DNA of 64,000 nucleotides from Paenibacillus piri (lineage in GTDB: Bacteria > Bacillota > Bacilli > Paenibacillales > NBRC-103111). A model generated the notes under the pieces. It was not told the DNA's origin and did no database searches. It saw nothing but the letters and a program-made list of their open reading frames with translations. The DNA is taken from assembly GCF_004354045.1 (NCBI RefSeq), contig NZ_SMRT01000011.1:186001-250000 (forward strand), given 5' to 3'. Of this stretch, positions 28,107 to 52,481 are shown in pieces; within the stretch, counting starts at the first letter, position 1; each line of letters opens with the position of its first letter. Both the position numbers and the translations under genes were made by a program.

Positions 28107-28373
28107 TATAAGAGCGCCTCCTTGATGGTGTTGGGTTTTAAACCTGTGGACAAACCCATCATACCGAGGCGCTCCTTTTTTGACAAAGCCTATTTCTTAG
28201 GCTATACAGGAATGTTTAGCTCAATGATCTGAAGAAATTGTTTCACTCAAGCTATTCCTCAGAAATCTCTACGCACTATCTAAACCCAATTTGACGCCAA
28301 AATTAGGCATTCACCTTGCCTATGGCGAATATCTTAATGGGGAAGTACATTTTTTAAAATTGAGGCGATACAC

Positions 28374-29153
28374 TTGGGATACTTCGTTACTGTGGAACCG
28401 GGCGTAAAAGTATTTATAGAGGACATCAATCCGAAGGGAAATAAAACGATACTTTTTATTCATGGATGGCCGCTAAACCATAACCAGTTCGAATATCAGT
28501 TCAATTTCCTTCCTAATCTCGGATATCGTTGTATCGGAATGGACTGGAGAGGATACGGCAATTCGGATAAACCATTCGACGGTTACGGTTTCGACAGATT
28601 AGCAGATGATCTTCGTATGGTCATCGAAGCGTTACAGCTAAAAAACATAACACTGGCAGGACACTCTACCGGAGGCGCGATCTCGATTCGTTATATGGCT
28701 CGTTACAAAGGGTTCGGGGTATCTAAACTCGTCCTGATCGACGCTGCGTCTCCATCAAGCGTTCCAAAAGAATTTACGAATAAAATCATCGAAGAAACAA
28801 ACAATGACCGTCCGAAAATGCTGCAAAACCAAACGGGGATTTTTTTCTTTCAGTACATTTCTGAACCGAAATCCGAATGGTTCTTTCTTATGGGTTTACA
28901 AGCTGCGAATTGGTCGACTTCCGCCATTATGGTCACGCTAAGAGACGAGAATGTTTACAACGATCTTGGACAGATCGATGTACCCACATTAATTATTCAT
29001 GGAATTCATGATAAAGTCGTTCCGTTTACCCAAGCACAGGAAACAAATAAGCTGATTAAAAATTCGCGATTAGTTCCATTCCAATACAGCGGCCATTGCC
29101 CTTTTTTGGAGGAGCGTGATAGATTCAACCAACTATTATCTTCTTTTGCATAA
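28374..29153 (+). CDS. alpha/beta hydrolase
   Basis: This is a 259-residue cytosolic alpha/beta-hydrolase of the haloperoxidase/esterase group. The oxyanion-hole region is ILFIHGWPLNHNQF, the nucleophile elbow is LAGHSTGGAISIRY (Ser within GHSTG), the acid Asp probably lies in LIIHGIHDKVVPF, and the His is in YSGHCPFLEE. Length and order match non-heme chloroperoxidase-like esterases. It starts at TTG 28374 with GAGGCG upstream. It stands alone between the IS110 element and a GNAT gene; substrate unknown. AT-rich codon use resembles the other accessory genes. Confidence 0.9.
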   Translation: MGYFVTVEPGVKVFIEDINPKGNKTILFIHGWPLNHNQFEYQFNFLPNLGYRCIGMDWRGYGNSDKPFDGYGFDRLADDLRMVIEALQLKNITLAGHSTGGAISIRYMARYKGFGVSKLVLIDAASPSSVPKEFTNKIIEETNNDRPKMLQNQTGIFFFQYISEPKSEWFFLMGLQAANWSTSAIMVTLRDENVYNDLGQIDVPTLIIHGIHDKVVPFTQAQETNKLIKNSRLVPFQYSGHCPFLEERDRFNQLLSSFA

Positions 29154-29285
29154 CGCCTCGGATTAGCCGCACCATCGCTACCCATAAATATAGTCCGATA
29201 ATGCCCGATGATTGAGCAAATCTGCCCGATAGTTGAGAAAACGGCTGCAAATCCATTTCTGGACGGCAGCCTTCTTAGTTTATGG

Positions 29286-29312
29286 AGCTATCGTTTCCGT
29301 TAGCGTAATATC
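29286..29312 (-). repeat. copy of small interspersed repeat (TTACGCTAACGG type)
   Basis: The minus strand reads TTACGCTAACGGAAACGATAG here. Related copies lie at 14347-14366, 20403-20428 and 63913-63940, each in intergenic DNA and often next to hairpins. Confidence 0.55.
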
Positions 29313-29334
29313 TCCAATACCATTTTTATCAATT

Positions 29335-29793
29335 TTAATTTTGTTCTTGAAGTTGTTCCTCGAATTCATTTACAAATACAAAACCTTTGGAGTTATAAAA
29401 TCTTCGCCCAATGATATTCTCCTTTTCCACGACAACGAATAACCTTTTAATTCCACTTAATTCTTCAATGCCTTTGTTCATTAATTTACCTCCAATCCCT
29501 TGAGATTGTGCTTCTGGAAAGATATAGATTGCTCCTAGTTCCGCTTCCTCAGCATTTTGCTTTGAAGGAGAGAAGTTTGCAAATCCGTTCACCATTCCAT
29601 CAATCACTGCAACTAATAAGACCGATCTTTCTATCCTGTTTTTCATAGCAATATCAGAATAATTTTTTTGAAGGAAGTCATCTTGTATTTGTTGAGGAAT
29701 AATTCCTCTATATGTTTGATCCCAAGTAATTTTCGCAACCATTTGTTTCTCAGCAATATCATTGAAAGTCGCTTTTCTGATGATAGTTGCCAT
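29335..29793 (-). CDS. GNAT-family N-acetyltransferase
   Basis: This is a 152-residue acetyltransferase. Typical GNAT elements are the N-terminal TIIRKATFNDIAEKQMVAKI, the beta-4 strand AELGAIYIFPEAQSQGIGGKLM with the acetyl-CoA-binding Q-x-x-G-x-G/A loop, and the C-terminal ENIIGRRFYNSKGFVF. The start ATG at 29793 has AGGAGG upstream. It is a single-gene unit next to the Tn7-like end copy; substrate unknown (antibiotics, amines or peptides are possible). Confidence 0.9.
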   Translation of the reverse strand: MATIIRKATFNDIAEKQMVAKITWDQTYRGIIPQQIQDDFLQKNYSDIAMKNRIERSVLLVAVIDGMVNGFANFSPSKQNAEEAELGAIYIFPEAQSQGIGGKLMNKGIEELSGIKRLFVVVEKENIIGRRFYNSKGFVFVNEFEEQLQEQN

Positions 29794-29873
29794 GTTTCTT
29801 CCTCCTAACGGTTTTTATTATTGTAACACGAAATGGATATTTATGGTTAAAAAGCATCGTTCCATAACTACGC

Positions 29874-30149
29874 ATAACTGCCATTTAGTTTAATGAGGCC
29901 ACCAGATAGATCCCGCGGCGGCCTCATGATGTTTGTGTTGAGCTATCGTATCCGTCCCTCGGTTTTAAGGGTTTATGTTCGAGAACGCATGGCCCCTCCT
30001 CTTGTGACATCTAAACGCTTGGGCCCGTTGTATTGTCGGGAATGGGATAAAGTTCTTGTCACAGGAAATTGACAAGAACTTTATCCCATAAAAAGCAAAA
30101 GCCGCAATTTACGCGACTTATAATGGGACAATGTTCTTGTCACCCGACA
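29874..30149 (-). mobile_element. Tn7-like end, inverted copy of 13477-13780
   Basis: Read on the minus strand this begins TGTCGGGTGACAAG at 30149 and matches the left ~304 bp of the 449-bp element at 13477 almost base for base, except that it lacks one 28-bp site duplication. It contains the GACAAGAACTTTATCCCATT sites and the GAGGCC hairpin. The right half of the 449-bp element is not attached here; the copy stops at about 29874 in ATAACTGCC. The two copies form an inverted repeat enclosing ~16 kb. Confidence 0.8.
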
Positions 30150-30162
30150 ATTCGTTGATTTT

Positions 30163-30262
30163 TGTCGGTTGACAAGAACTTTGATGTCATAAATGACAAG
30201 AACTTTATCCCATTCCCGACAAAAAAAACATCGTCAAAAGTTAGTTTTGACGATGTTTTTTT
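30163..30262 (+). mobile_element. Tn7-like opposite end adjoining tniQ remnant
   Basis: Starting TGTCGGTTGACAAG at 30163, this matches the right end of the 449-bp element (inverted), including two transposase-type sites and the AACATCGTCAAAA hairpin at 30223-30260. It is 13 bp (30150-30162) from the other end at 30149, so two outward-facing ends abut. The body extends right into the TnsC-TniQ remnant, as in Tn7-like elements where tniQ lies near one end. Confidence 0.8.
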
Positions 30263-30272
30263 GCAAGCGCAG

Positions 30273-31506
30273 CTATAATTTTGAATATTTTATCGGAGCA
30301 TTTAATCTATGCAAATATTTATTGATGTAATTCTTTTCTTCTTGATAATTGTCTGGGTATTTCGATTCGAAATATCTCATTGAATATGCAATTGGCGTAT
30401 GATCCTTTTCAACCATATGATTAATGCGTCTTTCACCAGTACAAACTAAATTATTTTCCTTTAAAGGCCGGCTCTTGGGCTCCTTAACAGTAATTAATTC
30501 AAGCCATTTTTGAGTTGTACGGCACTTAATTTCTGTATTGTTTTGCGTCCATCTACCCCACCCTTCACATAAATCAGCATATCTATAACCACATTCACAA
30601 GTGGATGGAGATGTCATCTTTTTATCGCTCAATAGATAAGGGAATGTCCCTTTACAATTGGGACATTGGTTACTAAGAGGAATTAAGTGGAATGGGCAAT
30701 TGTGTATTAATACAAATTGATGCAATATACTGTGAAATCCGAATTTAATACACTGTTCGCACCAAATCGGCAACTCAACTTCTTTTCCTGAGAGCCCAAA
30801 TTCTTGCCTTATGTCCAAGAACAGATTAAATAAGCTAGTTGAAAAATCAGCAAGTCTTTTCCCAGAGTCGAATGCTTGAGGAAAGTAATATCTTGAATAG
30901 AACCATCCACTATTCGGAGGAAATTCCGATTCATCATAGCTCTGAAGCACGAACTCCATTTCCTCTTTTTTCGTGATACCGTGAAACTGATGCTCCTTGG
31001 GCATAAACCTTCCAACTATGTGTGACTTTGCATTAGCCAGAAAGAAGGATCTACGGTTCACCAACTGTTCTTGACCTATAGATATCGTTATCATCGTTAT
31101 ATTCCTTCGAATCAACTGATTATAAATATCAATCAAACAGTCATACTGCTACTCTGTAAGCTTCTGTGCCTCATCCATAATTAAGGCGACCCTTCGTAGT
31201 CTGGAGTCTTCAGCTTTTTCATGCATTAAATTAACGATTTGATTCCGGAGTATGATTTCATCCTTTTTCCCATCAAATCCAAAGCGGAAATCAGAAAGCA
31301 TATCTCGAAAAAATTTTTCTGCAGATGGTACTTTGTAACTTTTACTGTCCGCTATAAATACAGGTATTGGAGTATCTAGAAGCGCTGGTAAATAATTCAC
31401 AGCGAACATTGTGGCTCTTGTTTTTCCAAGCCTAACAACGCCGCCATAGAGAGCTTCTTCTCGCATTTGAAAGCGGAAGCGCTCTATCCCTATCATATCC
31501 GTTCTT
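30273..31506 (-). pseudogene. TnsC-TniQ fusion remnant with in-frame amber stop
   Basis: Reading on the minus strand, 31506-31150 encodes part of a TnsC/TniB-type AAA ATPase: Walker A-like GVVRLGKTRA and Walker B VALIMDEAQ. An in-frame TAG (31147-31149) follows KLTE; the same frame continues QYDCLIDIYNQLIRRNITM and IGRFMPKEHQF-like sequence (here VGRFMPKEHQFHGI), the C-terminal part of TnsC. Near residue VELPIWCEQC it switches without a stop into a TniQ/TnsD zinc-finger region (WCEQC, HNCPFH, CPNC, CECG) and ends PIKYSKL at 30273. An internal deletion thus fused the two genes, and an IS3 fragment removed the TnsC N-terminus. No TnsA or TnsB is left. Confidence 0.75.
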
Positions 31507-31508
31507 TG

Positions 31509-31666
31509 GACGAGGCACAACGGAGAATAGAAGAATTTATACATTTTTATAATCATGAGCGAATACAGCGAAAACTGAATAAGCTGACACCGGTAGAGTA
31601 CTGGCGCCAGCTTGCAGCCTAGGGGCTTTTTTCAATGTCTACAAAATTGGGGCTTGACCAGATCTA
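31509..31666 (+). mobile_element. IS3-family 3' fragment (OrfB C-terminus and right end)
   Basis: The plus strand from 31509 encodes DEAQRRIEEFIHFYNHERI followed by QRKLNKLTPVEYWRQ and a stop at 31620-31622, the last ~37 residues of an IS150-like IS3 transposase. The following TTTCAATGTCTACAAAATTGG resembles the end of such elements near 31640-31666. It truncates the TnsC gene at about 31506. Confidence 0.8.
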
Positions 31667-32198: not shown

Positions 32199-34925
32199 TC
32201 ATTCGCTCCGATCCTTCTTGGTTTGAATGATATAGTAAGGCTGATTGGACAAGCGGTTCTCAAATCCGGGTATCATCCATGCATCGCCGTTTGACGTTCT
32301 TACCTCAAAAAAATACGCAATCGGATACGGCGACATCGTATACGCTGCAGGGATCCAAGCCCGAAAGCTATCTCCCTGCCGTTCCATGTCCAAGGTTGCA
32401 TACGATTCAGCCTGGTTGACATGACGATAATGCAGCAGCACATGCAGACCGGAGGCAGCTCCTGTAAAAGTAAGCTGTGCTTCCATCGGCTCCCCTTTTA
32501 TAAAGGAGCTTACGGGAGCATGGACGCCTGGGGGACGTTCCCCTCTCGGAACTGCGGCCAGCATATCGTCCATGGTGCGGACTTCCGGTGAAGTTCCCGC
32601 CTGAAGCTCGCTATATATGCGTTCAATAGTCTGGATGTCCTTGTCAATATCGCTCAGCCGGTCGGACCAGTGTCCGCGCGAATAATGGGCGCGCCCGAAA
32701 GTCAGATCTTCCTTGTAAACGTCTGAAGAGGCTTCGATCACCCGCTTCCAGTGATCTCGGGCGGCATGATAATAATGGATGGCTTCCTTTAACAGGCCGG
32801 CGTCCCCTGCTCTTTCAAACAATGCATAAGCGAGCCCCGCACGAAACTTTTGCGAGAAGAACCGGCCGATGCCGGCCATAATCCGCACGTCCGCAGCCCA
32901 GCGCCGAAACGACGGCGCATGGCCGTACCGTATTCTCTCCTGCGACTCGGACAGCGTCAGCTCCGCATGCCCCGCCAAATCGTCCAGCCAATCCGCTATT
33001 TCGAGCGGCGAGTATTTTCCTCTCCGTTTTCCCGCCAGAATATCGTCCGCGAATTCGTTTACCCCATATATAAGTACAGGGTCCAGCGGACTGGCGGAAC
33101 CGAACGTATGCGGTGCAGGGGTATCGAAATCGTAATTATACGGATACCCATAGGCTTGATATATATTCTCGATGCGTTCCCCGCTCCGGAATAACGGCAT
33201 ATTGGCATACATTTCGGGCCAATACACATTATTGGCAACGGACGGCGCATGAGCCACCAAGATAAGAGGCAAGATGCGGCTGGCATAAGCCATGGCTGCC
33301 TCACACGCTGTGGCAGCGTCCTGGAACTCCGATCGAAGAAATCTTCTCCACGTCTCCGGATCGGCGTCCGGATCATAAGAAAGTCTCCCCAACAGCCGGT
33401 ACGTATATGAAAATTTGCTCCAATCGCGCACCCCTAGCCGCAAGGATTCGTCCGCATACAGCTCGCGTCCGCCCGGACTTCCCGACCCCTTGCGGCCTTT
33501 AAAAGAAAGCGGCTCGAACCACTCCACTCCGAGCGACCCGCAAAAGCCCGCGCTTCGGCCGTACCCGGCCGCCTGCTCCGGATCGCCCCACGTCAAGACC
33601 CGCTGGGTTCCCGGCCATACCCGATGGACGATCCCGTACTTGCGGTCATCGCGGTAATAATCGGCAAACCCGTAACGGGTATAGCTTCGTTTGGAGGTGA
33701 CGTCCATGCCTCCCTGCTTCAGGTTGGAGTTCCCTATGCCGAAATGCGCCGACTTGGCACGAGCCCCAAGCGGTCTGGGAACAAACTCCCTGTCGCGGAT
33801 GGAGGCTTGATGGTAGGAGAGCCCCATATGCTCTCCCCAGAATTTCGTCGACAATACGACCGGCATCCCTGTGTTTAACGCGATATCGACCAGCTCGCCG
33901 TTAACGCCTTTGGCATGAAAATCCACTTCAACGGAACGTCCCGCATCCTGGAGCCCCTCCATGACGACACGCCAGAAATCATGTGTCGGCTCAGGCACCC
34001 CGCCTTCAAAATGAACCCTGAAAGTGATGCCTTCGATAGCCGGACACGCTTGCAGCAGCAGCTTCAAAGCATCCCGGCAATAGGACGCATGGTTGGAGGC
34101 ATCCAGGCCGTTAATTTTATACCTGGTGTTCGTATTGTCGGGGCCGTAATCGTATGCGTGGTTCCACAGCCCCAACCGGAATGTCAGTCCCCGCAGCTTT
34201 GCCTGTTCCCCGATATATTGCAGCATCTGCAGGTTTTTTTCTCGTTCCGTATCGGCAAGTCCGTCTACGTAAACCGAATATCCCGGAACCGGCAGCAAGT
34301 ACGGATAGATGAAGCAAAGGTACGTATCTTCTACGATTTTGTCAATCAAGTAATCGTACCCGGCGCCGGTACCGAGCGTAAAGCGGTTAAACCGATGCGT
34401 GGCCAGCTCCGTCAAATAAGACTCCCAGAAGCCTTCGTCGTAAAACCACGCCTTGTCCTCGGCCTCGCTGCTGAACAATCGGGTCACGCTTCGTACTCGG
34501 TTGGTCGGCTTCTCCGCAAAGGAGCGGATCGAAGTCAGCGCTTCTAACGGATCGGCGGAGTGCTTGACCGTGTCCGCCAGTTCCAATACGGCATAAACAA
34601 GGCCACGCACATCCGCGCCAACTGCAATAAGTTCGTTTGCCGCCGCATGCCGGATAATCGCAAACGCTTCCGCCGCTTCCGGCAGGCCGATGCCTTGCTG
34701 CTCTGCGGCGCTTCTGGCAGCGGCTGCGTCACTTCCGGTCAACACAATGCTCAGCTTCGCTCCGCCACCTGCACTCGGCCGGTCCGACTGGATGACAGTC
34801 AGTTCCTTCGAACGCAATATCCCGGCCAAATATCCTGCGGCCCATTCACTCTCCGCCGAAGCGGCTGCTGCGTCACTTCCGTCCCTCGCGATCCAGACAT
34901 CCGGAAGCTTCCTGTTCTCGCTCAA
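32199..34925 (-). CDS. large glycosidase-like protein 1 (GH20/GH67-type N-domain plus TIM-barrel-like region)
   Basis: This is a 908-residue cytosolic protein (no signal peptide), paralogous to the gene at 36499. The N-terminal ~140 residues (LSIVLTGSDAAAARSAAEQQ ... VGADVRGLVYAVLELAD) resemble the alpha/beta domain that precedes GH20 and GH67 barrels. The middle has RFNRFTLGTGAGYDY, LGLWNHAYDYGPDN and GITFRVHFEGGVPEP, with acidic residues that could be catalytic, then HAKGVNGELVDIALNTGMPV and GRKGSGSPGGRELYADES. The C-terminal ~350 residues are helical with a small beta domain. The start is TTG 34925 with AGAGGTG 7 nt upstream. Last gene of the operon 42379-32199. Family level is inferred; substrate probably a uronic-acid or amino-sugar glycoside. 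Confidence 0.7.
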   Translation of the reverse strand: MSENRKLPDVWIARDGSDAAAASAESEWAAGYLAGILRSKELTVIQSDRPSAGGGAKLSIVLTGSDAAAARSAAEQQGIGLPEAAEAFAIIRHAAANELIAVGADVRGLVYAVLELADTVKHSADPLEALTSIRSFAEKPTNRVRSVTRLFSSEAEDKAWFYDEGFWESYLTELATHRFNRFTLGTGAGYDYLIDKIVEDTYLCFIYPYLLPVPGYSVYVDGLADTEREKNLQMLQYIGEQAKLRGLTFRLGLWNHAYDYGPDNTNTRYKINGLDASNHASYCRDALKLLLQACPAIEGITFRVHFEGGVPEPTHDFWRVVMEGLQDAGRSVEVDFHAKGVNGELVDIALNTGMPVVLSTKFWGEHMGLSYHQASIRDREFVPRPLGARAKSAHFGIGNSNLKQGGMDVTSKRSYTRYGFADYYRDDRKYGIVHRVWPGTQRVLTWGDPEQAAGYGRSAGFCGSLGVEWFEPLSFKGRKGSGSPGGRELYADESLRLGVRDWSKFSYTYRLLGRLSYDPDADPETWRRFLRSEFQDAATACEAAMAYASRILPLILVAHAPSVANNVYWPEMYANMPLFRSGERIENIYQAYGYPYNYDFDTPAPHTFGSASPLDPVLIYGVNEFADDILAGKRRGKYSPLEIADWLDDLAGHAELTLSESQERIRYGHAPSFRRWAADVRIMAGIGRFFSQKFRAGLAYALFERAGDAGLLKEAIHYYHAARDHWKRVIEASSDVYKEDLTFGRAHYSRGHWSDRLSDIDKDIQTIERIYSELQAGTSPEVRTMDDMLAAVPRGERPPGVHAPVSSFIKGEPMEAQLTFTGAASGLHVLLHYRHVNQAESYATLDMERQGDSFRAWIPAAYTMSPYPIAYFFEVRTSNGDAWMIPGFENRLSNQPYYIIQTKKDRSE

Positions 34926-34949
34926 CTCCCAACACCTCTTACCTATGGT

Positions 34950-35345
34950 TTATGCATACAGAACAACATGCCCTTCTTCCACGGTCACCGGGAAGGTTTC
35001 AAGATTTTCCTCCAGCGGTTCCACAGCCACATCGTATTTCTTAACCAGACACTGGTGCGGATTGAAGAGCGATTTCCCCGTTGTGACGTCAAACTCCCAC
35101 CCGTGCCAGGGACAGGCCAATATTTCGCCTTCCCGCCCGTAACGGTAGCTTCCCGGCTGCGACGGCAGCGTTGTTCCCGTCAACCTGCCCACACACAATG
35201 GCGCTCCCTGATGCGGGCAGCTGTTGCGCAAAGCGTAATATTCCCCGTTTGCGTTAAATACGCCGATGGACCTTCCGCCGACTTGAACGATTTTTCGCTC
35301 TCCCGGCTGCATTTCGGTCGTTTTACATACTACGAATCGCTCCAT
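34950..35345 (-). CDS. Rieske [2Fe-2S] ferredoxin 1 with 32-residue insert
   Basis: This is a 131-residue soluble Rieske protein. The cluster ligands are SCPHQGAPL (Cys, His) and ACPWHGWEFD (Cys, His). They are 32 residues apart, about twice the usual spacing; the insert includes an extra LCVG cysteine and a Gly-rich stretch. The start is ATG 35345 with GGGGG 9 nt upstream. It follows the amidohydrolase by 17 nt and precedes the glycosidase-like gene. A paralogue at 52065 has the same insert length. It probably passes electrons to an oxidative step or holds a regulatory cluster, but no oxygenase or reductase gene is found in this operon. Confidence 0.9.
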   Translation of the reverse strand: MERFVVCKTTEMQPGERKIVQVGGRSIGVFNANGEYYALRNSCPHQGAPLCVGRLTGTTLPSQPGSYRYGREGEILACPWHGWEFDVTTGKSLFNPHQCLVKKYDVAVEPLEENLETFPVTVEEGHVVLYA

Positions 35346-35362
35346 GAACGGCAGCCCCCTGT

Positions 35363-36421
35363 TTAAAGGTTGTAAAATTCCTTCGCATTCTCAAAAAAGA
35401 TTCTCCGGTGAAGCTCGTCCGGAAGCTTCGGAAAAGCTCTTCTCGGCGAGTCGAAGTCCCAATGCGGATAGTCGCTGGCAAACATTAAAATATGTTCGGC
35501 ATCCATCGCTTCCAGCATCGCGAACAAATATTTGTCGTCATCCGGCCGTTCGATCGGCTGGCTCGTCATCCGCACGTGGTCCCGTAAAAATTCGCTCGGC
35601 CGTTTTTCAAGCCAGGGCACTTCATAGCGGAGCCCTTTGTATTCCGCATCCAGCCGCCACATCAACGGCGCAAGCCAGGAGACGCCCCCTTCGACAAGCG
35701 CGATTTTGAATTTGGGAAACTTCACAAAAACCCCTTCGGTCAGAAAGCTGACCAGATGAGCCTGGAAGGCAAGCGACAGGCAGGTGTGAAACTCGATGTA
35801 GCGGGTAGGATGCCCCGGCGTGGGCTGATGGTTAATGCCCATCCCATCCGTACCGGGATGAATCGCCAGCGGGAAGCCATATTTCTCGCATGCTTCATAG
35901 ATCGGATAATACTGCCGCTGACCGAAGGGCGCCGTTGCTCCGGAGTCGGTCATCACCTGTACGAAATGAGGATGACCGGCCCATCGCTCAATCTCCCTGG
36001 CCGCACCTGCAGGGTCCTGGGTAGCGATATACAGCGACCCTTTGAACACGCCGTCATGATTATATTTATCCAGCCACGTATCGGCCAGCCAATCGTTATA
36101 AGCTGCGGCTACCGCGGAAGCCATATCGGGGTTCGGCAAGTTGTTCAGCATCGCGCGGGGCAGCAGAATGGCGTAATCGATCCCGTATTCGTCAATCAGC
36201 TGTTCCCTTAAAAAATCCGGATCGGTTCCCGCTCCTCCGCCGCCTGGCGGCTTGGCGTCCGCACGGTTACCCTGAATATTGCCGTAGGCCCGGGTTAACG
36301 GACGATACCAGTCCCTCCAGGGCTGAGGCAAATACTTGTTCAGCTCTTCCCTGGATTTAGGATAGACATGGACATCGCAGTCAATAATGCCTTTTTTTCC
36401 AGTCGCTTGCTTTGAACTCAT
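35363..36421 (-). CDS. COG2159-type amidohydrolase/decarboxylase 1
   Basis: This is a 352-residue metal-dependent TIM-barrel enzyme of the amidohydrolase_2 family (ACMSD, resorcylate decarboxylase, oxalomesaconate hydratase and relatives). Motifs are GIIDCDVHVYPKS (first metal site), FPLAIHPGTDGMGI (His), KIALVEGGVSWLAPLMWRLD, DHVRMTSQPIERP and LMFASDYPHWDFDSP (metal-binding Asp). The start is ATG 36421 with GGGAGGGG 5 nt upstream; an upstream in-frame codon at 36469 lacks a site. Paralogues lie at 52504 and 55517. Its immediate partner is the Rieske ferredoxin. Reaction unknown: decarboxylation, hydration or lactone hydrolysis of a sugar- or ring-derived acid are options. Confidence 0.9.
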   Translation of the reverse strand: MSSKQATGKKGIIDCDVHVYPKSREELNKYLPQPWRDWYRPLTRAYGNIQGNRADAKPPGGGGAGTDPDFLREQLIDEYGIDYAILLPRAMLNNLPNPDMASAVAAAYNDWLADTWLDKYNHDGVFKGSLYIATQDPAGAAREIERWAGHPHFVQVMTDSGATAPFGQRQYYPIYEACEKYGFPLAIHPGTDGMGINHQPTPGHPTRYIEFHTCLSLAFQAHLVSFLTEGVFVKFPKFKIALVEGGVSWLAPLMWRLDAEYKGLRYEVPWLEKRPSEFLRDHVRMTSQPIERPDDDKYLFAMLEAMDAEHILMFASDYPHWDFDSPRRAFPKLPDELHRRIFFENAKEFYNL

Positions 36422-36498
36422 TGGAACCCCTCCCGTTATGCATGAATGGTGATGAAAGCTTCGCAGCACTTTCGCACTGCGAAGTTTGGAGAATCGGA

Positions 36499-39150
36499 TT
36501 AGCGGCTTCGGACGAAATAATACGGCTGATTCGAGATGTCCTCGTTCAAGCCCGGATAATGCCGGGCGCCGCCGTCGCTTTCAACGACCTCGAAGAAGTA
36601 GAGAATGCCGAAAGGCGACTTCGTGTAGGCTGCCGGAATTTCAGCGGCAAAGCTCGCACCGTCCCGATTCATTTCCGTGACGACGTAATGCTCGCTCTGA
36701 TTCGCGTGCCGATAGTGCAGCACCACCTTCAGGCCGTCGGACGCGCCCGGCAGCTCAAGCTGCACGCCGAGCTTTTCGCCTTTGGAGAAATGCGACGGCG
36801 CCCGATGCACGAACAGCTGCCTGCGGTCCGCAGGCGAAGCGGCCAGCACCTTCATGGCTGCCTGCAGCTTTCCGGTGTCCACCGTCCGGCTGGCGTCCGA
36901 GCGGGCTGCCTGCAGCTGGCGCTCCATAGCCTGGATATCCGCTTCGATTGCAGGCAGCCGGTCCGCCCAGTGTCCTCTGACCGGTTGGGTATAGCCAAAC
37001 GCAATATCCGGCTTATATTTATCCTGCGAAATCGCAACGACCCGGACCCAATGCTCTCTGGCCAGCTTGTAGAAATCCAGCGCCCGCTCCAGCTCGGCAA
37101 CGTCCCCGGTCCGCTCGGACAAAGCGTAGCTTAACGCCGCCCGGAATTTGTTCGCGAAAAACTGGCCGATATGGATCAGCATGCGGGTATCCGTAACAAA
37201 CCGCTGAAAATTCGCAGCTTGCGGGTCCACGGCCAGCTCTATGGCTTTGGACAAATATTGAGCGGCCGTTGTCGCCATCGCCTCCAAGCGATCGGCCGTC
37301 TCCAGCGGAGAATACTTGCCATGACGGAAGCCCTGGATAATATCATCGGCAAAATCGTCGATCCGGTAAAACAATGCGGTATCCAGCGGGCTGGCCGCAC
37401 CGAACGTTCCCGGCTGCGGCGTATCGAAGCCAAACGGCGACGGCAGGTCCGGATCGGCAATCGGCTGGTTGGTATGCATTTCAGGCCAGTAAACGACATT
37501 CGCAGCGGACGGGCAATAGGCTGCGGTAACCAGGGGCAGGATGCGGCTCGCATGCGCAAGCGCCGATTCATAGCTGTCTGCCGCCTCGCCGAATTCGAAG
37601 CGCAAATATCTGCGCCATACGTCTGGATTCGTCTCGGGGTTGTAGAGCAGCCGTCCCCACAGCCGGTACGTATATTTATGCTTCAGCCAATCCCGGTTCG
37701 GCAGCTTCAGCTCTTCGGCAAGATAAGGCTCCCGTCCGCCCTCCGTGCCCGAGCCTTTGCGTCCCTTGAAGGTCAGCGGCTCGCACAGCTCGATGCCTTG
37801 CGTTCCGCTGAAATGGGAATACCGTCCGTAGCCAGCGGCCAGCGCGGGGTCGCCCCACAGCAGGAGCTTTTGAGTGCCCGGCCACAACCGGAACAAAATG
37901 CCTATTTGACGGTCATCCCGCAAATAGTCTGCATAGCCGTATCGCGTAAATCGGCGCGACCATGCAGTAATGGCCTGCATATCCATTGTCTGATTCTTCG
38001 GCAAAGAAAATTCGTTATCCCGGATAGCCGCCTGATGATAGCTGGGCCCCATATGCTCTGCCCAATATTTCGGCGAGATAAATATCGGCTGGCCGGTATC
38101 AATCGCGATTCGGATCAGTTCGTCATTAATGCCCTTCGCATGCATATCGATTTCTAACCGGCGGCCGATGTCCTTCGTTCCCGCCAGCGCAACGCGCCAA
38201 AACTCGTAAGCGGGCTCCGGAATACCGCCTTCATAATGCACGCGGAACGTCAAGCCGTCGATCTCTGTAAACTCCTTCAGCAGCTTGGCGATCGCATCAC
38301 GGCAATAGGGGGCATGGTTCTTCTCGTCAATACCGGCGATCGTATAGTTCATATTCGGACTGTCCGTAAATATGTAGGAATGATTCCAAAGTCCGAGCTG
38401 AAAATGCATTCCCCGCCGCTTGGTTTCCTGGCCGATATAGCGGAGCGTTTCAAAGTTCAGCCTTCTCTCCTCTTCGGACAGCTCAAGAGCTTTCACCTCA
38501 TAGCCCGGCACATCAAACAAGAACGGGTAGGCAAAGCTAAAGTAGTTGTCGCGCACATTCGGATCGTGGCCGTAATCATACCCCATGCCTAAAGACAGGG
38601 TGAACCGGTTAAATCGCTGTGTCGCCAGCTCCGTCAAATATTCATCCCAGAACGACTTATCGTAAAACCACGGCTTATCCTCCGGCTCGCAAGCGAACAA
38701 GCGGGTTACGCTGCGGATCTCATTGGCCGGTTTGTCGACGAGCGTCCTGACGTCAAGCAGCTCCCCGGTAATATCGCCGGAAGCATGCCGGATTCGATCC
38801 GTCAGCTCCAGGAGGGCATACACGAGCCCGCGTCCGTCAGGGGCCGTCAGTACGATTTTCCCTTGAGCGGCAAGGATCGCAAGCGATTCCGCTTCCTCCG
38901 GCAAAGCAACGCCAAGCTCACGGCCTGCAGCTATGGCTGCCGGGGAGTCGTTCCCGGAAATGATAATTTGCACCTTGGCGAATTGCCCGGCCCCTTCTTG
39001 TTCGAGGGCGACACCCATTCCGCGGCTTTCCAGCGCGCCGATCAAGGTTTGCTTCGCCCATTGGACGGATGGCTCCGAACCCAGCGCAGTTTGAGGGTCA
39101 TGTACAATCATAATATCAGGCGAGCTGCCCGATTGATTTGCATGTGACAC
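36499..39150 (-). CDS. large glycosidase-like protein 2 (paralogue of 32199)
   Basis: This is an 883-residue paralogue with the same architecture: N-terminal GH20/GH67-like domain (VQIIISGNDSPAAIAAG ... VLTAPDGRGLVYALLELTD), SVTRLFACEPEDKPWFYDKS, LGLWNHSYIFTDSPN, GLTFRVHYEGGIPEPAYEF, HAKGINDELIRIAIDTGQP, TFKGRKGSGTEGGREPYL, a helical C-terminal part and a final beta domain ending ISNQPYYFV. The acidic residues in RVHYEGG and HAKG stretches are kept in both copies. The GTG start at 39150 has GGAGGAG 7 nt upstream. It follows the two permeases and precedes the amidohydrolase in one minus-strand operon, so it likely processes the imported glycoside in the cytosol. Confidence 0.72.
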   Translation of the reverse strand: MSHANQSGSSPDIMIVHDPQTALGSEPSVQWAKQTLIGALESRGMGVALEQEGAGQFAKVQIIISGNDSPAAIAAGRELGVALPEEAESLAILAAQGKIVLTAPDGRGLVYALLELTDRIRHASGDITGELLDVRTLVDKPANEIRSVTRLFACEPEDKPWFYDKSFWDEYLTELATQRFNRFTLSLGMGYDYGHDPNVRDNYFSFAYPFLFDVPGYEVKALELSEEERRLNFETLRYIGQETKRRGMHFQLGLWNHSYIFTDSPNMNYTIAGIDEKNHAPYCRDAIAKLLKEFTEIDGLTFRVHYEGGIPEPAYEFWRVALAGTKDIGRRLEIDMHAKGINDELIRIAIDTGQPIFISPKYWAEHMGPSYHQAAIRDNEFSLPKNQTMDMQAITAWSRRFTRYGYADYLRDDRQIGILFRLWPGTQKLLLWGDPALAAGYGRYSHFSGTQGIELCEPLTFKGRKGSGTEGGREPYLAEELKLPNRDWLKHKYTYRLWGRLLYNPETNPDVWRRYLRFEFGEAADSYESALAHASRILPLVTAAYCPSAANVVYWPEMHTNQPIADPDLPSPFGFDTPQPGTFGAASPLDTALFYRIDDFADDIIQGFRHGKYSPLETADRLEAMATTAAQYLSKAIELAVDPQAANFQRFVTDTRMLIHIGQFFANKFRAALSYALSERTGDVAELERALDFYKLAREHWVRVVAISQDKYKPDIAFGYTQPVRGHWADRLPAIEADIQAMERQLQAARSDASRTVDTGKLQAAMKVLAASPADRRQLFVHRAPSHFSKGEKLGVQLELPGASDGLKVVLHYRHANQSEHYVVTEMNRDGASFAAEIPAAYTKSPFGILYFFEVVESDGGARHYPGLNEDISNQPYYFVRSR

Positions 39151-39190: not shown

Positions 39191-40021
39191 TTATCCCTTC
39201 AGACCGGCAGTAGCAATGCCTTCAATAAAATATTTTTGCAGACTCAAAAAGATGACAAAGATCGGCAGCAGGGACAAAACGGATGCCGCCATGATGGCGC
39301 CATAATTCGTCTGTTCCTCGGTTTGAAACTGCAGCAGTCCAAGCGGAATAGTGAATTTATCCTTGTTGCTCAAGAAGACCAGCGCGTTCTCGTAATTGTT
39401 CCACGAACCGACAAACGAAAAAATAACTAGCGTGGAAACGACCGGCATGGATAACGGAAGTATGATTCTTGTAAACGTTTTAAAGTGGTTGCAACCGTCC
39501 AATTTAGCCGCTTCAACCAATTCATCCGGTATCGTGGTGAAAAACTGCCTGAATAAAAAGGTGCCGAAAGCGCTGAAAATACCGGGAAGCATCAACGCCC
39601 ACAGGCTGTTGTACAAGCCCATCAAGCGGTACAAGACAAACCTCGGAACCAGAAGCATCTGATGCGGAAACATCAGTGTGGCGATATAAATGACGAAGGC
39701 AGGCTCTCTGCCTTTAAACTTGATTTTCGCAAAAGCATACCCCGCAAGCGCGCTTGTAATCACCTCGCCGACGACACTGACCACGGAAACCTTGACCGAG
39801 TTCATAAAATACGTTTGGAAACGCGCAAACCATACGGTTACATAGTTATCGAAAATAAACGTTTTAGGTATCCATCGGATCGGAAATTCGAATACATCCG
39901 CGGTCGGCTTGAAGGATGCGGACAGCATCCAGAAAAAAGGCATGACGGATATGATGGAAAGAATGAGCATAACTACGGTTAAAACCGTTTTTTGAGCTAA
40001 TTTAAAAGACCTCGCATTCAT
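39191..40021 (-). CDS. carbohydrate ABC transporter permease (MalG/LacG-type)
   Basis: This is a 276-residue inner-membrane permease with six predicted segments, beginning TVVMLILSIISVMPFFWML. The sugar-permease signature is PDELVEAAKLDGCNHFKTF, with the EAA-type loop and IILPLSMPVVSTLVIF. The C-terminus FIEGIATAGLKG is typical of MalG-type subunits. GAGGAGAGGAGG precedes the ATG. It pairs with the permease at 40039 and the lipoprotein at 41003. No ATPase gene is present, as is usual for sugar importers in Bacillota that share an MsmX-type ATPase. Confidence 0.94.
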   Translation of the reverse strand: MNARSFKLAQKTVLTVVMLILSIISVMPFFWMLSASFKPTADVFEFPIRWIPKTFIFDNYVTVWFARFQTYFMNSVKVSVVSVVGEVITSALAGYAFAKIKFKGREPAFVIYIATLMFPHQMLLVPRFVLYRLMGLYNSLWALMLPGIFSAFGTFLFRQFFTTIPDELVEAAKLDGCNHFKTFTRIILPLSMPVVSTLVIFSFVGSWNNYENALVFLSNKDKFTIPLGLLQFQTEEQTNYGAIMAASVLSLLPIFVIFLSLQKYFIEGIATAGLKG

Positions 40022-40038: not shown

Positions 40039-40980
40039 CTAGTTTACGTGCGAGTCTTTATTGGAAAATTTCCACTGCAGCGCCGTAAAGATGAAGACCA
40101 GGACGAACAGCACCCATCCGATCGCGTTGGCATATCCAATCTTGTTGTACGTAAAGGCAGCTTTATAAATATAGTAGACCAGAACCGATGTAGAGGTGCC
40201 CGGCCCTCCCTGCGTCATGACGTTCACCTGGGTGAACACCTGAAACGATCCGATAATGGAGATCACCGTTACGAAGAACAAGGTTGGCGACAGCATCGGA
40301 ATTGTAATCTGAAAAAATTTGCGGATCGGTCCCGCTCCGTCGATTTCCGCCGATTCGTACAAAGTGCCGGGAACGCTTTGCAGTCCGGCCAGCAAAATGA
40401 CGGCGTTATACCCGACGGCCTGCCAAACGCTCATGATGATAATCGAGATCAGCGCCCATTGGGACGAAGACAGCCAGCCCGGCGGGTTTTCGATCCCGAT
40501 CGATGTCAGAAACATGTTGATCGGACCGAAGGTCGGCATATACAAGATACTCCACACCACGGATATCGCAACCATGGAAGCGATATTGGGCAAATAAAAT
40601 CCTAACCGGACTAAGCTCTTGCAGAAGATTTTATCGTTCAAGACCACTGCAAGTATCAAAGCCAGGAATACAGAGCACGGAACCGTAACAGCCGCGTAAA
40701 CAATGGTATTCACCAAGGACTTGATGAATACGGAATCCGTCCACAAATCGATATAATTTTTCAGCCCGATAAATTTAATTCCTTTCAGGCCGGATACCAG
40801 ATTCCAATCGCAAAAGCTGAATATCAGCGAAAGAATAATCGGAATTAATTTAAAAACAATATAACCGATTAAATTAAGTGAAAGAAACAGCCAACCCGCT
40901 ATATTTTCATACAGGATATCCTTGCGAAGCTTCTTTTTGCGCGTAGGTACCAATAATGAGTTCTTCTTTGCCAGTTCCAT
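40039..40980 (-). CDS. carbohydrate ABC transporter permease (MalF/UgpA-type)
   Basis: This is a 313-residue permease. The first membrane segment is GWLFLSLNLIGYIVFKL, and the permease loop is VPGTLYESAEIDGAGPIRKF (E-A-A-like motif with a conserved G), followed by FQITIPMLSPTLFFV. The start is placed at ATG 40980, with GGAGG 8 nt upstream; a GTG at 40995 comes before that site. It forms a heterodimeric channel with the product of 39191. It sits 17 nt upstream of that gene in the same operon. Confidence 0.94.
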   Translation of the reverse strand: MELAKKNSLLVPTRKKKLRKDILYENIAGWLFLSLNLIGYIVFKLIPIILSLIFSFCDWNLVSGLKGIKFIGLKNYIDLWTDSVFIKSLVNTIVYAAVTVPCSVFLALILAVVLNDKIFCKSLVRLGFYLPNIASMVAISVVWSILYMPTFGPINMFLTSIGIENPPGWLSSSQWALISIIIMSVWQAVGYNAVILLAGLQSVPGTLYESAEIDGAGPIRKFFQITIPMLSPTLFFVTVISIIGSFQVFTQVNVMTQGGPGTSTSVLVYYIYKAAFTYNKIGYANAIGWVLFVLVFIFTALQWKFSNKDSHVN

Positions 40981-41002
40981 CGGGCATACCTCCACAGATC
41001 TC

Positions 41003-42379
41003 CTATTTCCCTGCTTTTTTAATTAACTCGTCAGACTGTTTTTTCAATTTGGCTACAGTCTCTGCCGGGGTTTGATTTCCCATCAGGCACGAAGTAATTT
41101 CCGATTTTACCATATCCATCATTTCAGCTTTTGCCGTATTGATTGTAGTCAGGTATGGCGTGAGCTTCATCTTATTATCGATAAATGTTTTCATGCCTGA
41201 AGGCTGATCAAAATGCGGGTAATCGAAAATAATTTTGCCCACCTTTTCTTTTACTGCAGCATCCATGGACGAAAGATTGGCAGGCGTCATTGCTTTGGAT
41301 TGAGCGAAAATCTCCGGCGCCTCCAGGCAGTAAAATTTAAGGAACGTCCAGGCCGCCTCTTTATTGGGCGCGCTCGCTGGAATGCTGAAATCGCTTATAT
41401 AGTATACATTGCTCAAGTCGTCTTCTTTTTTCACTTTAGGCAGATTGACAACGCCATAGTCAAAATTGGTAAAGCCATAGGACTCCTGCGAGCTGTACTT
41501 GACTATAAACGACGGCTGAATATACATCGCTGCTTTACCTTGCATAAAAATAGCATGCGGATTCGCATCGATCTTGAGCGCCTTGTACTCCGAAATCGGC
41601 CATGCCGATTTATCCTTCATTTCCATATCGTAATAATATTGCAATGCGTTTAAAAAAGCCGGATTATCCCAATTTGATTCCTGTCCGCCATTTTTATAGA
41701 CATAGTTCATCCCGAGCTGTTGAATAGCGGGGAACGCCCACTGGCCGGTGTAGTCCGGCAAAAACCCGTATATTTTGGCGGCCCCGCTGCCTGAAGTCAA
41801 TTTCAGCGCTGCCGCTCTGAGATCGTCCCATGTCCAGTCGTCGGTCGGATACGGAACTCCAGCCTTATCGAACATCGCTTTATTATAGTAAAGGCCGTAG
41901 GTCGCCATACTGTATGGAAGCGCATAATGTTTGCTGTTCACCGTTTCCAGTTCGTTAATGGATTCCCCGAACAATTGTTTATAGTCCAGATTGTCCTTCT
42001 TCAGGTAATCATCCAACGGCTCGTACATCCCGCTCGTGGCTCTGATCCGCATATCGTCAACCGAAGCTTGCGGGATGACGTCAATCGCTTCGCCCGAGGT
42101 CAGCAGGGAATTCGCGGTGGCAGGGTTGGAATCCGCCATCTTCGTATACTTCACTTTGATATTCGGATATTTCTTCTCAAATGCCTCGAAAAATGGCTGC
42201 ATGCTCTCCTCGACCGTCCAGCTGTAGACATTCAGTACGGTCTGTCCCGGCGCTCCATCGGATGGCTTGGCAGCCGTCCCCGCATCTTGACTTTGGCATC
42301 CAGCCGCTACGATCGTGCTTGCGGTAAGCGTCAGCGGAACCAGATAACGTTTTACTTTTTTTACGGCAGCATTTTTCAC
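41003..42379 (-). CDS. sugar-binding lipoprotein (SBP_bac_1 family)
   Basis: This is a 458-residue extracellular solute-binding lipoprotein. The signal peptide ends in STIVAAGC (lipobox with lipidated Cys). The mature fold has the usual features of family-1 sugar-binding proteins: LNVYSWTVEESMQPFFEAFE, SGEAIDVIPQ, YALPYSMATYGLYYNKAMFD and PYPTDDWTWDDLRAAALKL. The start is GTG 42379 with AGGGGAG 8 nt upstream; another GTG at 42388 overlaps that site. First gene of the operon 42379-32199, with a good promoter 44-71 bp upstream. It probably binds an oligosaccharide or glycoside. Confidence 0.94.
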   Translation of the reverse strand: MKNAAVKKVKRYLVPLTLTASTIVAAGCQSQDAGTAAKPSDGAPGQTVLNVYSWTVEESMQPFFEAFEKKYPNIKVKYTKMADSNPATANSLLTSGEAIDVIPQASVDDMRIRATSGMYEPLDDYLKKDNLDYKQLFGESINELETVNSKHYALPYSMATYGLYYNKAMFDKAGVPYPTDDWTWDDLRAAALKLTSGSGAAKIYGFLPDYTGQWAFPAIQQLGMNYVYKNGGQESNWDNPAFLNALQYYYDMEMKDKSAWPISEYKALKIDANPHAIFMQGKAAMYIQPSFIVKYSSQESYGFTNFDYGVVNLPKVKKEDDLSNVYYISDFSIPASAPNKEAAWTFLKFYCLEAPEIFAQSKAMTPANLSSMDAAVKEKVGKIIFDYPHFDQPSGMKTFIDNKMKLTPYLTTINTAKAEMMDMVKSEITSCLMGNQTPAETVAKLKKQSDELIKKAGK

Positions 42380-42422
42380 CGTATTCACTCCCCTATTCTC
42401 ATTGTTATGCGTTCATGTCTTC

Positions 42423-42991: not shown

Positions 42992-43019
42992 AAAAAAAAC
43001 AGCCCGCACGCGGGCTGTT
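42992..43019 (-). terminator. terminator after response regulator gene
   Basis: AACAGCCCGC (42998-43007) and GCGGGCTGTT (43010-43019) form a perfect 10-bp stem that begins at the response-regulator stop codon. On the minus strand it is followed by eight T residues, a textbook intrinsic terminator. Confidence 0.9.
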
Positions 43020-44618
43020 TCACTTCTGTAAGCTCCTGTATTCTTGAGGCGTTAATCCAGTCACTTTCTTGAAAATTTTGCTGAAATAGTAGGCGTCCGG
43101 ATAGCCGACCTTCATGCCGATTTCATATATTTTACTGCCGCTGTTTTTAAGCAAATACCGGGCTTGCTCGATCCGGGCCTGAATGAGAAAATCGATAAAG
43201 TTTTCGTTCGTGGTTCTTTTGAACAGTGAACTCAGGTAATTCGGGGAAATGTTAAGCTGCTGGGAAACCGTCTTTAAGGAAATATCCTTATCGTAATGCT
43301 CCAGCATATATTTTTTGGCGCGGGCTACGATATTGTTCCCGTCGTCGATGTTGTGCAGCAGCGAAATAACTTTGTCTTTCAGCTCCAGAATCCAGTTGCG
43401 AAAATCGTCCAGCGTACGTAACTGCTCCAAGCTTGACAAGGGCGCGGTCCTGTCCAAATCTTCGCCCGTGAATTCCTTTTCCCAAACCGTCACCATAAAA
43501 GTCAGCGACCAGCAGCTTCCGCGAAGCGATTCCTCCGATTTGTTAAAGCGGCTGTCATCGATTTTCCGGACGAATTGATCGAATGCTTCCGTAAGCATCT
43601 CTCCGTCAAGCACGTGAAACGCCTTCTCGATTTGTTTAAACTCCTCTTCAAAGCCAACCGTGAGGCTGGCATCAAACTGTCGCTGATAATGATGAATGGT
43701 ACGCTTCAGCTCCGAAAAGCCTTGATCAAGCGCCGTGCTTGCCTGGCGATAAGCGGTTTTCAGTTCTCGAAGGCGGCTGCATGGCTCGCTGATGCCGATT
43801 CGGCATTTAAAGTTCAAAAAAGTTTTCAAAGCGCCCTCCACATGAGCAGCCAATTTCTCGACAGCATGCTTGGTTTCGGTCTCCGAACCGGCCCCGATCG
43901 AATGAATAATGGCAAACTCCATCGTATTGGTCGAGGTGACGTAAGCGGGAGGATAATTTTGCAATATTTCTTCAATTATATTCGTGACGCCATAGGTTAG
44001 AACATACCTGTCGTCCACGCCGTACTTTTCATATAACTCCCTGTTTTCCACGCGAACTAACAAGCATACCAGATTTTCGGCATGAAGATTGATATCCAGG
44101 TAATCGAATTGCACTCGAACCTCTTCCTCATTGATATAGTAGCTGAACAGCAGGTCCTGGAACAATTTTTCCCGCAATGCAGGTAAATTCCTCCTTTTAT
44201 ACCATTCGTCCGCGCGCTCTTCCTCATGTCGGCTTCGTTCGGCTTCAATCTTCCCTTTGACTTTGTTAAGCAGCTCGACAAACGGCTCCGGCTCCATTTC
44301 CAGCTTTAAAATGTAGTCCTCAGCCCCGATCCGCATCGCTTCTTTCACATAATCGAAGTCGCCGTAGGAGCTCAGCACGATGAATTTCGTTTCCTTCAGC
44401 CGCTCGCGTAAAGCGGAAATAAGCTCTACGCCGTTTAATAGCGGCATCTTGATATCGGTAATGATAATGTCCGGCTTTAATTGCAGGGCTAAATCCATGG
44501 CTACTTTGCCATTCTCCGCCTCCGCCACTAAATTAAACCCGTATTTTTCCCAAGGAACCATCGTTTTCAAGCCAACCCTTGCCAACGTTTCGTCATCTGC
44601 AATCATCACACTGATCAT
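43020..44618 (-). CDS. YesN-type response regulator with AraC DNA-binding domain
   Basis: This is a 532-residue transcription regulator. The receiver domain shows VMIADDETLARVGLK, the phosphoacceptor Asp in IIITDIKMPLLNGVE, and IVLSSYGDFDYVKEA. A ~280-residue middle region links to two AraC helix-turn-helix units at the C-terminus (ISLKTVSQQLNISPNYLSS and KIYEIGMKVGYPDAYYFSK). The start is ATG 44618 with AGGAGG 5 nt upstream, so the gene overlaps the kinase by 26 nt and is translationally coupled. It probably activates the sugar operon at 42379. A terminator follows its stop directly. Confidence 0.95.
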   Translation of the reverse strand: MISVMIADDETLARVGLKTMVPWEKYGFNLVAEAENGKVAMDLALQLKPDIIITDIKMPLLNGVELISALRERLKETKFIVLSSYGDFDYVKEAMRIGAEDYILKLEMEPEPFVELLNKVKGKIEAERSRHEEERADEWYKRRNLPALREKLFQDLLFSYYINEEEVRVQFDYLDINLHAENLVCLLVRVENRELYEKYGVDDRYVLTYGVTNIIEEILQNYPPAYVTSTNTMEFAIIHSIGAGSETETKHAVEKLAAHVEGALKTFLNFKCRIGISEPCSRLRELKTAYRQASTALDQGFSELKRTIHHYQRQFDASLTVGFEEEFKQIEKAFHVLDGEMLTEAFDQFVRKIDDSRFNKSEESLRGSCWSLTFMVTVWEKEFTGEDLDRTAPLSSLEQLRTLDDFRNWILELKDKVISLLHNIDDGNNIVARAKKYMLEHYDKDISLKTVSQQLNISPNYLSSLFKRTTNENFIDFLIQARIEQARYLLKNSGSKIYEIGMKVGYPDAYYFSKIFKKVTGLTPQEYRSLQK

Positions 44619-46422: not shown

Positions 46423-46458
46423 TCGAATCACCGAATTTCTGCGCAGTAAGATATAATG

Positions 46459-47841: not shown

Positions 47842-47981
47842 AATCATAAACTCCCTTTCACATGAGAGAACATGGTACGTACAAATTCATTGTATCATAG
47901 GTTTATGTTCATATTCATCACGAATTTGTATGGACATCCCTTCTTTGGGGACGGCTTTTGCATCGTTTCATTACGGGTAAA

Positions 47982-52034: not shown

Positions 52035-52064
52035 CGGCACCCCCCCAGCATACTCACAATAACG

Positions 52065-52481
52065 TTATACCGTCACAACAATCCAGCCCGCCTCTACGAT
52101 GACCGGATAAGTTTCCACAATGGGGATGTCTTCCTCCAGCCGGTCTACGACTTCCACATCGTACGTTTTCACCAAACATTTGAAGGGGTCGAACATGGAT
52201 TTCCCGTTGGTAATATCGAATTCCCAGCCGTGCCAAGGGCATCGCACAATTTCGCCGTCCCTCCCGTAAAGATACTCCCCCGGGTCGGAAGGCAGCATCA
52301 TGCCTTGAACGCGGCCTACGCACAACTGCGCGCCCTGATGGGGACAACGATTTCGCATCGCATAAAACTGGCCCTTGATGTTGAATACTCCAATGGATCG
52401 TCCTTCAATAGTTACAATCTTCCGGTCCCCAGATGGGAGTTCCCGAACGGGACATACCATATGTTTGCCCATTACAGCCAT
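52065..52481 (-). CDS. Rieske [2Fe-2S] ferredoxin 2 with 32-residue insert
   Basis: This is a ~138-residue paralogue of the protein at 34950. Ligands are RCPHQGAQLCVGR (Cys, His) and RCPWHGWEFDI (Cys, His), again 32 residues apart, with the extra LCVG cysteine and the DPGEYLYGRDGEIV stretch conserved. A longer C-terminal tail (VEVVDRLEEDIPIVETYPV) distinguishes it. Several in-frame ATGs lie near AAAGGAG (52484, 52481, 52472), so the exact start is open; 52481 is used. It follows amidohydrolase 2 by 22 nt, repeating the gene order seen in the other half of the island. Confidence 0.9.
   Translation of the reverse strand: MAVMGKHMVCPVRELPSGDRKIVTIEGRSIGVFNIKGQFYAMRNRCPHQGAQLCVGRVQGMMLPSDPGEYLYGRDGEIVRCPWHGWEFDITNGKSMFDPFKCLVKTYDVEVVDRLEEDIPIVETYPVIVEAGWIVVTV

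Follow-up and report, generated by a model that had tools for sequence, protein, structure and literature searches.

Two paralogous proteins of Paenibacillus piri, here called focal A and focal B, are read by us as members of a glycoside hydrolase (GH) family that is unclassified in Pfam and NCBIfam and appears to be a sister of GH138. Their genes lie in a window of 64,000 nucleotides (the whole stretch of DNA analysed; contig NZ_SMRT01000011.1, positions 186,001 to 250,000). They are filed as a sister family because a GH138-like predicted fold and GH138-like active-site residues are combined with a sequence far outside GH138. Both proteins are likely glycosidases, a grade that is given jointly to this function and to the complete explanation proposed below.

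Family assignment by sequence

According to BLASTP, focal A and focal B are identical at 445 of 906 positions (49%) over almost the full length, and the score of 866 bits places their similarity far beyond chance. The initial annotation had described two paralogues of about 900 residues with four shared motifs and no signal peptide, and all three points were borne out. Both open reading frames (ORFs) are present, LGLWNH, FRVHxEGG, HAKGxN, and FKGRKGSG occur in both proteins at corresponding positions, and neither N-terminus has a strongly hydrophobic stretch (maximal 12-residue mean hydropathy 0.65 and 0.85, respectively). The same measure gives 0.48–1.09 in four other Bacillota relatives and 1.45–2.77 in four relatives whose N-termini are Tat- or Sec-like, and the statement on signal peptides holds for Bacillota members. 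A third gene, of the Amidohydro_2 family, lies between the paralogues within the span of that annotation, which was silent on it.

No Pfam family matches focal A or focal B at E ≤ 1. Thus, a strong match to GH67, GH84, GH115, or GH20, which the initial annotation had named as the outcome that would speak against a new family, was not found, and assignment to these four families was rejected on sequence. The best NCBIfam match of the pair is NF049878 (alpha-D-galacturonidase) with 33.3 and 61.0 bits, the cut-off being 1300; focal B has one further NCBIfam match, at chance level. NF049878 was taken as the GH138 model by inference, since L053, a GH138-type protein from a related genome, matches both this model and BPa0997, the GH138 structure (best PDB match of L053, E about 1e-214 over 800 residues). 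L053 scores 1035 bits and thus itself misses the strict cut-off, so it is the gap between the scores, and not the cut-off, that carries weight. Because of this gap, the focal pair is kept out of GH138 proper. In related genomes, 16 more GH138-type proteins are 57–79% identical to L053.

Kinship with GH138 is nevertheless detectable at the sequence level. BPa0997 is matched by phmmer at E 7e-4 (residues 96-254) and by a hidden Markov model built on 76 focal-family members at E 4.5e-13 (best stretch at profile positions 41-343), and hhalign aligns the focal family with a profile of 13 GH138-type sequences at a probability of 99.7 (E 5.5e-27, 660 columns). The earlier claim that the proteins fit no known GH family thus stands for Pfam and NCBIfam, but it overlooked GH138, the nearest relative, which was not among the families listed. 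A keyword search of open-licence literature, built mainly around GH138 terms and PDB codes, returned nothing recognisable as the focal family.

A second GH138-related family has members of about 700 residues. With hhalign it aligns to the focal family at a probability of 100 over 643 columns, and it aligns to GH138 as well. Members are found at L051:5837-7915, L049, L050, and L052, with another example at L072:15615-17738 (alignment A4), and the host has four copies. Scanning of L050, L051, and L052 gave no Pfam family above the cut-off.

Predicted structure and active site

The AlphaFold2 model of focal B has a predicted local distance difference test (pLDDT) score of 91.2 and a predicted template modelling score of 0.92. 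According to Foldseek, GH138 chains occupy ranks 1–5 (E 3.2e-30 to 3.6e-29), with GH20 at rank 6 (E 8e-15) and the GH20, GH115, and GH84 entries that follow at E 8e-15 or weaker. VIA-align superimposes the model on 6hzg (GH138 BPa0997) with Z 24.6 and a root-mean-square deviation of 3.2 over 626 residues. The next entries belong to GH20 (Z at most 16.2), GH1 (at most 15.2), GH67 (15.0), and GH84 (at most 14.9), with GH20, GH84, and GH67 spanning 14.6–16.2. The predicted model has the GH138 architecture, i.e., an N-domain, a (beta/alpha)8 barrel, and a helical domain. As for the GH20/GH67-type N-domain proposed initially, it is confirmed as a fold (the model aligns with GH20, GH84, and GH67 from about residue 10), although the best match is GH138.

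In the hhalign alignment, E307 of focal B stands opposite the glutamate of CLGE and E365 opposite that of KYNGE. In BPa0997 chain A these glutamates are numbered E294 and E361, and we take them to be the GH138 catalytic pair; a molecule name listed for 6hze and 6hzg is 'BPa0997 N-ter E361S'. GH138 enzymes are configuration-retaining. All 76 of 76 sequences have the same residue at E307 and E365 and likewise at R303, H305, G309, K339, K361, and G425. A conserved pair of carboxylates, for which the initial annotation had advised looking, is present.

Distribution, export, and phylogeny

A pattern-based scan of 84,980 species genomes, which detects only sequences carrying given peptide patterns, yielded 157 stretches encoding relatives, and the best 80 (78 loci) were used. 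Of 86 focal ORFs read, 12 were omitted from alignment A2 (2 for length, 9 for doubtful N-termini, and 1 as a near-duplicate). As labelled in the sequence records, the relatives come from at least seven phyla (Bacillota, Acidobacteriota, Verrucomicrobiota, Planctomycetota, Bacteroidota, Armatimonadota, and Chloroflexota), and a few are labelled Actinomycetota or Gemmatimonadetes. Some bins are possibly mislabelled, e.g., L091, which is titled Williamsia and carries SusC/SusD.

A twin-arginine motif is present in 40 of 51 non-Bacillota rows (34 strict and 6 relaxed) and in none of the 25 Bacillota rows; Bacillota members are mostly located beside ABC importers. From these motif counts we infer that most non-Bacillota members are exported and Bacillota members are cytosolic. 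The intracellular location suggested initially would thus be a trait of Bacillota.

In a quick tree, the Bacillota rows form one group. Focal A and focal B fall into separate supported clades that each include proteins of other Paenibacillus species, an indication that the duplication predates those species. Several genomes hold two or more focal copies.

Genomic neighbourhoods of relatives

Of 98 related genomes, 8 carry focal genes (E<1e-200) and 9 carry the ~700-residue family (E<=1e-60). The latter is thus present in all 8 focal genomes and in 1 of the 90 others (Fisher p 6e-11, not corrected for ancestry). A subgroup of the ~700-residue family scoring above 1070 bits, a line chosen after the scores were seen, has one copy in each of exactly the 8 focal genomes, with the next score equal to 953. 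Near a focal gene, the ~700-residue family (E<1e-80) occurs at 8 of the 78 loci.

Focal neighbourhoods in Bacillota contain varying sets of genes for MR/MLE dehydratases, GH42- and GHL6-like proteins, an Fe-alcohol dehydrogenase, SDR, lactonase, and Gfo/Idh proteins, and the ~700-residue family. GHL6-like genes lie near a focal gene at 11 of the 78 loci, five of which are outside Bacillota. At L084, L091, L110, and L132, genes for a TonB receptor and SusD stand directly upstream of two focal genes, an arrangement that is a hallmark of a polysaccharide utilisation locus. Neighbours at L113 include GH29, GH43, and GH97, and L092 has a GH3 neighbour.

Genes of 2-hydroxyacid metabolism recur at several of these places. 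L132 and L110 have the order SusC, SusD, focal, focal, propeller, LctP (lactate/glycolate permease), LutA, LutB, LutC, and a malate-synthase-like gene; since the two are syntenic, they count as one case. L162, on the L132 contig, continues with an arabinofuranosidase-like gene, a 2-hydroxyacid dehydrogenase, and a glycerate kinase. In Paenibacillus locus L042, GlcD-like and GlcF-like genes, a ThDP enzyme, and a nickel-pincer isomerase (NF052515) lie beside a C-terminal focal fragment, and at L065 GlcD/GlcF-like genes adjoin a full focal gene. L151, on the contig of the L084 focal genes, carries a glycerate kinase and a tartronate-semialdehyde-reductase-like gene below the cut-off. L165 and L166, which have GH138-related and GHL6-like genes and no focal gene, contain LctP-like genes and, by eye only, 2-hydroxyacid-dehydrogenase-like genes. 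We read these neighbours as reflecting sugar-acid or pentose breakdown that ends in glycolate or glyoxylate, although LctP/Lut genes are found at only 2 of the 78 loci.

A beta-propeller protein (c23) is a further recurrent neighbour of focal genes, in both Bacteroidota and Bacillota (L132:10242-11264, L110:15235-16794, L065:9571-10632, and L109), and the L110 ORF has an additional C-terminal part. Its model (pLDDT 76.8) matched generic propellers only (TolB, peptidases, and WD40), and for this reason it was dropped as a clue to the substrate.

Association with oxygenases

The gene between the paralogues (ARO-c) resembles Mn/Fe or di-iron oxygenases of the AibH/SfbO group. All three amidohydrolases of the window closely match solved amidohydrolase-related oxygenases (AROs), with PDB 8sm7, a candidate dinuclear oxygenase, as the best hit (Table 1), followed by SfbO (8sm6) and AibH1H2 entries. 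A Rieske gene with CxH...CxxH is located in the same operon as ARO-b at a distance of 19 bp, and ARO-c belongs to another operon of the cluster. In PMC10811679, AROs are described as dinuclear oxygenases that can be told by a Rieske gene next to them. The paper assigns a di-iron site to 8sm7, reports activity for SfbO only, and states that natural substrates are not readily inferred for the four AROs studied there.

The eight focal genomes contain 58 ARO matches (E<=1e-80), of which at least 8 have a focal gene no more than 20 kb away, versus 0.5 expected; an ARO at such a distance is found at 5 or more of the 13 loci with complete focal genes. Because the window locus had prompted the idea of proximity, the count was repeated without it, which gives at least 5 ARO matches at no fewer than 4 of 12 loci versus 0.46 expected (Poisson P 1e-4), with two matches at one locus. 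Among the 78 loci, an ARO is near a focal gene at 8 of 21 in Bacillota (one a fragment) and at 0 of 57 outside Bacillota. The latter value argues against a general link and means that the family as a whole cannot depend on the oxygenase as its partner. Within Bacillota, the pairing suggests that some orphan oxygenases serve sugar catabolism, and a pathway shared by the focal family and the oxygenase is possible there, though doubtful.

At host sites C26 and C11, AROs are paired with the ~700-residue family. The host has 10 AibH/SfbO-like genes at E<=1e-10 in all, four of them on contigs without a focal gene (G000:C13:23805-107852 and G000:C5:193716-194777).

Proposed function and alternatives

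Homology, predicted fold, residue conservation, and genomic association are supported directly, and inference leads from them to hydrolysis, the substrate, and the order of steps. Each protein would begin with an alpha/beta domain of GH20/GH67 type, continue with the catalytic (beta/alpha)8 barrel and a helical domain, and end in a beta domain. By the GH138 mechanism, E307 (RxHxEGG) would act as acid/base and E365 (KxWxEHMG) as nucleophile in a retaining reaction. In the host, the adjacent ABC importer may bring a small glycoside or oligosaccharide into the cytosol, where cleavage at the non-reducing end would probably free a uronic acid or a sugar acid akin to it. Products could then enter an oxidative sugar-acid route through an enolase-superfamily dehydratase, with dehydrogenases and lactonases also encoded near relatives, and the oxygenase-like neighbour may oxidise the aglycone, a methyl ether, or the sugar itself. 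The initial proposal of a hydrolase family for imported glycosides fits in that the proteins are probable glycosidases with ABC import genes adjoining. A uronide is the leading guess for the substrate, though a tentative one that we rate somewhat below even.

Several observations weigh against this explanation. Identity to GH138 across the fold alignment is only 16%, and the alignment ends at residue 751-756 of 883, leaving the C-terminal rest uncovered. Many single-barrel enzymes, GH1 among them, also reach Z about 15, so the fold matches to GH20, GH67, and GH84 say little. The ~700-residue family keeps the first glutamate and has A aligned at the E365 position, which indicates that the catalytic site drifts within the superfamily. 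The eight focal genomes represent three genera, and their co-occurrence with that family is hence not eight independent events. At 67 of the 78 loci no GHL6-like gene was seen, although many contigs are short. The uronide guess is drawn from kinship only, and we know of no focal-family member with known activity.

The proteins might instead belong to GH138 as divergent alpha-galacturonidases, with rhamnogalacturonan-II fragments as their substrates. The best fold and profile matches are indeed to GH138, with both catalytic glutamates aligned, but the NF049878 scores of the pair are far below that of L053 (even with the strictness of the cut-off in mind), genomes G004, G033, and G085 each have one gene of the focal type and another of the GH138 type or more, and FRVHxEGG and KxWxEHMG are unlike CLGE and KYNGES. 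We therefore consider membership in GH138 proper quite unlikely. It is also unlikely, if a little less so, that the fold is kept for a reaction other than simple glycan hydrolysis, such as a glycoside lyase or an ether or C-glycosidic cleavage aided by neighbouring oxidoreductases. The 2-hydroxyacid genes (LctP, Lut, malate-synthase-like, glycolate-oxidase-like, and glycerate kinase) would then handle the released acid, as the run at L132/L110, its continuation at L162, and the GlcD/GlcF-like genes at L042 and L065 might suggest. However, the first two loci are a single syntenic case, LctP/Lut genes are found at 2 and GlcD-like genes at 1 of the 78 loci, L042 has a fragment only, LutB, GlcD, GlcF, and malate synthase are all below NCBIfam cut-offs, and the catalytic pair matches GH138. 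Finally, the lack of any activity known to us and the retention of multiple copies in several genomes would suit degenerate or non-catalytic proteins, e.g., glycan-binding or regulatory paralogues; with both glutamates and the nearby R, H, and K invariant across phyla, this is very improbable.

For glycosidases of a GH138 sister family, a combined oxidative and hydrolytic route that degrades a modified glycoside from plants or microbes can be imagined, which we regard as speculative. An acidic sugar would carry a blocking group, e.g., an O-methyl or carboxyalkyl ether, which a Mn/Fe ARO would remove or oxidise. Cleavage by the glycosidase would follow, with the products passing to sugar-acid dehydratases and, in certain phyla, to glycolate, glyoxylate, or glycerate catabolism. 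If true, orphan AROs would thereby gain a sugar as natural substrate, and a new glycosidase family would be established. Since neither the Pfam nor the NCBIfam copy searched has a model for the focal family, surveys based on them would miss it, and the genes around it suggest substrates that can be tested.

Gene cluster in the window

All listed genes between 32 and 58 kb are on the minus strand (Table 1). The distances between the first solute-binding protein, the two permeases, focal B, and the amidohydrolase are 7, 17, 40, and 29 bp, and these genes are an operon as judged by spacing; another 437 bp separate the amidohydrolase from focal A. Import genes near the pair, as noted initially, are thus present. 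The same stretch contains a two-component system, a second ABC set, two further amidohydrolases, and a Rieske protein. Terminator-type hairpins in the region number 15, compared with 13.3 expected in shuffled sequences.

Table 1. Features of the gene cluster and of a related locus
Feature	Position	Strand	Remarks
Focal A, 908 aa	32199-34925	-	TTG start; paralogue of focal B
Proposed E365 of focal A	33831-33833	-	codon
Proposed E307 of focal A	34005-34007	-	codon
ARO-c, Amidohydro_2	35363-36469	-	like PDB 8sm7, E 1.6e-112; downstream of focal B
Focal B, 883 aa, GH138-related probable glycosidase	36499-39150	-	GTG start
Proposed nucleophile E365 of focal B	38056-38058	-	codon
Proposed acid/base E307 of focal B	38230-38232	-	codon
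ABC permease (BPD_transp_1)	39191-40021	-	upstream of focal B
ABC permease	40039-40995	-	homology grouping with other loci
ABC solute-binding protein (SBP_bac_1)	41003-42388	-	Pfam
Terminator-like hairpin after response regulator	42996-43021	-	11 pairs and T-run; consensus match only
Response regulator, AraC-type helix-turn-helix	43020-44645	-	
Histidine kinase	44593-46431	-	HAMP; sub-threshold Cache match
Second ABC solute-binding protein	46459-47847	-	
Mandelate racemase/enolase-superfamily protein	48022-49254	-	best NCBIfam: sugar-acid dehydratases, all below cut-off
AraC-type regulator	49704-52040	-	sub-threshold Cache match
Rieske [2Fe-2S] protein	52065-52484	-	CxH...CxxH (CPH, CPWH); possible electron donor to oxygenase
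ARO-b, Amidohydro_2	52504-53637	-	8sm7, E 1e-103; SDYPHWDF segment is SDYPDEHF
ABC permease	53642-54520	-	
ABC permease	54537-55520	-	
ARO-a, Amidohydro_2	55517-56602	-	8sm7, E 4.6e-106; 4-bp overlap with permease
Probable solute-binding lipoprotein	56621-58138	-	position and homology to same-position proteins elsewhere; no Pfam match
C-terminal focal fragment, 198-aa ORF	L042:9159-9752		

The Rieske gene, two AibH/SfbO-like amidohydrolases, and two ABC permeases at 52065-56602 form one tight operon, probably for a multicomponent oxygenase. Near the cluster end, 26820-31556 holds an IS110-type transposase and two ORFs without a Pfam match (30273-31136 and 31149-31556), possibly mobile DNA. Elsewhere in the window, luciferase-like monooxygenases (3810-5111 and 8002-9324) flank an NMT1-like binding protein in a separate uptake/oxidation locus, and 15418-19881 encodes an S-layer-homology surface protein of 1487 aa with Ig-like domains.

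Comparison with known systems

The focal proteins are most similar to GH138 (PDB 6hze/6hzf/6hzg), with which they share the predicted N-domain, barrel, and helical domain, both aligned glutamates, and an invariant K ahead of the second one. They differ from it in overall sequence and in the active-site motifs, and the C-terminal region of the model is not aligned with it. The ~700-residue family is shorter and has SWKYSNAH where the focal proteins have SPKYWAEH, leaving the second glutamate unaligned. As for the GH67 and GH115 alpha-glucuronidases and the GH20 and GH84 hexosaminidases, they have the N-domain and barrel architecture in common with the focal model, but there is no Pfam match to them, and their fold match is far below that of GH138 and no better than that of GH1 barrels. 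The amidohydrolases of the window resemble AibH1H2 and SfbO (PMC10811679, PMC7782822) in their 8sm7-type sequence and in having a Rieske gene in the cluster, as described for AibG; unlike those systems, they sit beside glycosidase-like and sugar-acid genes.

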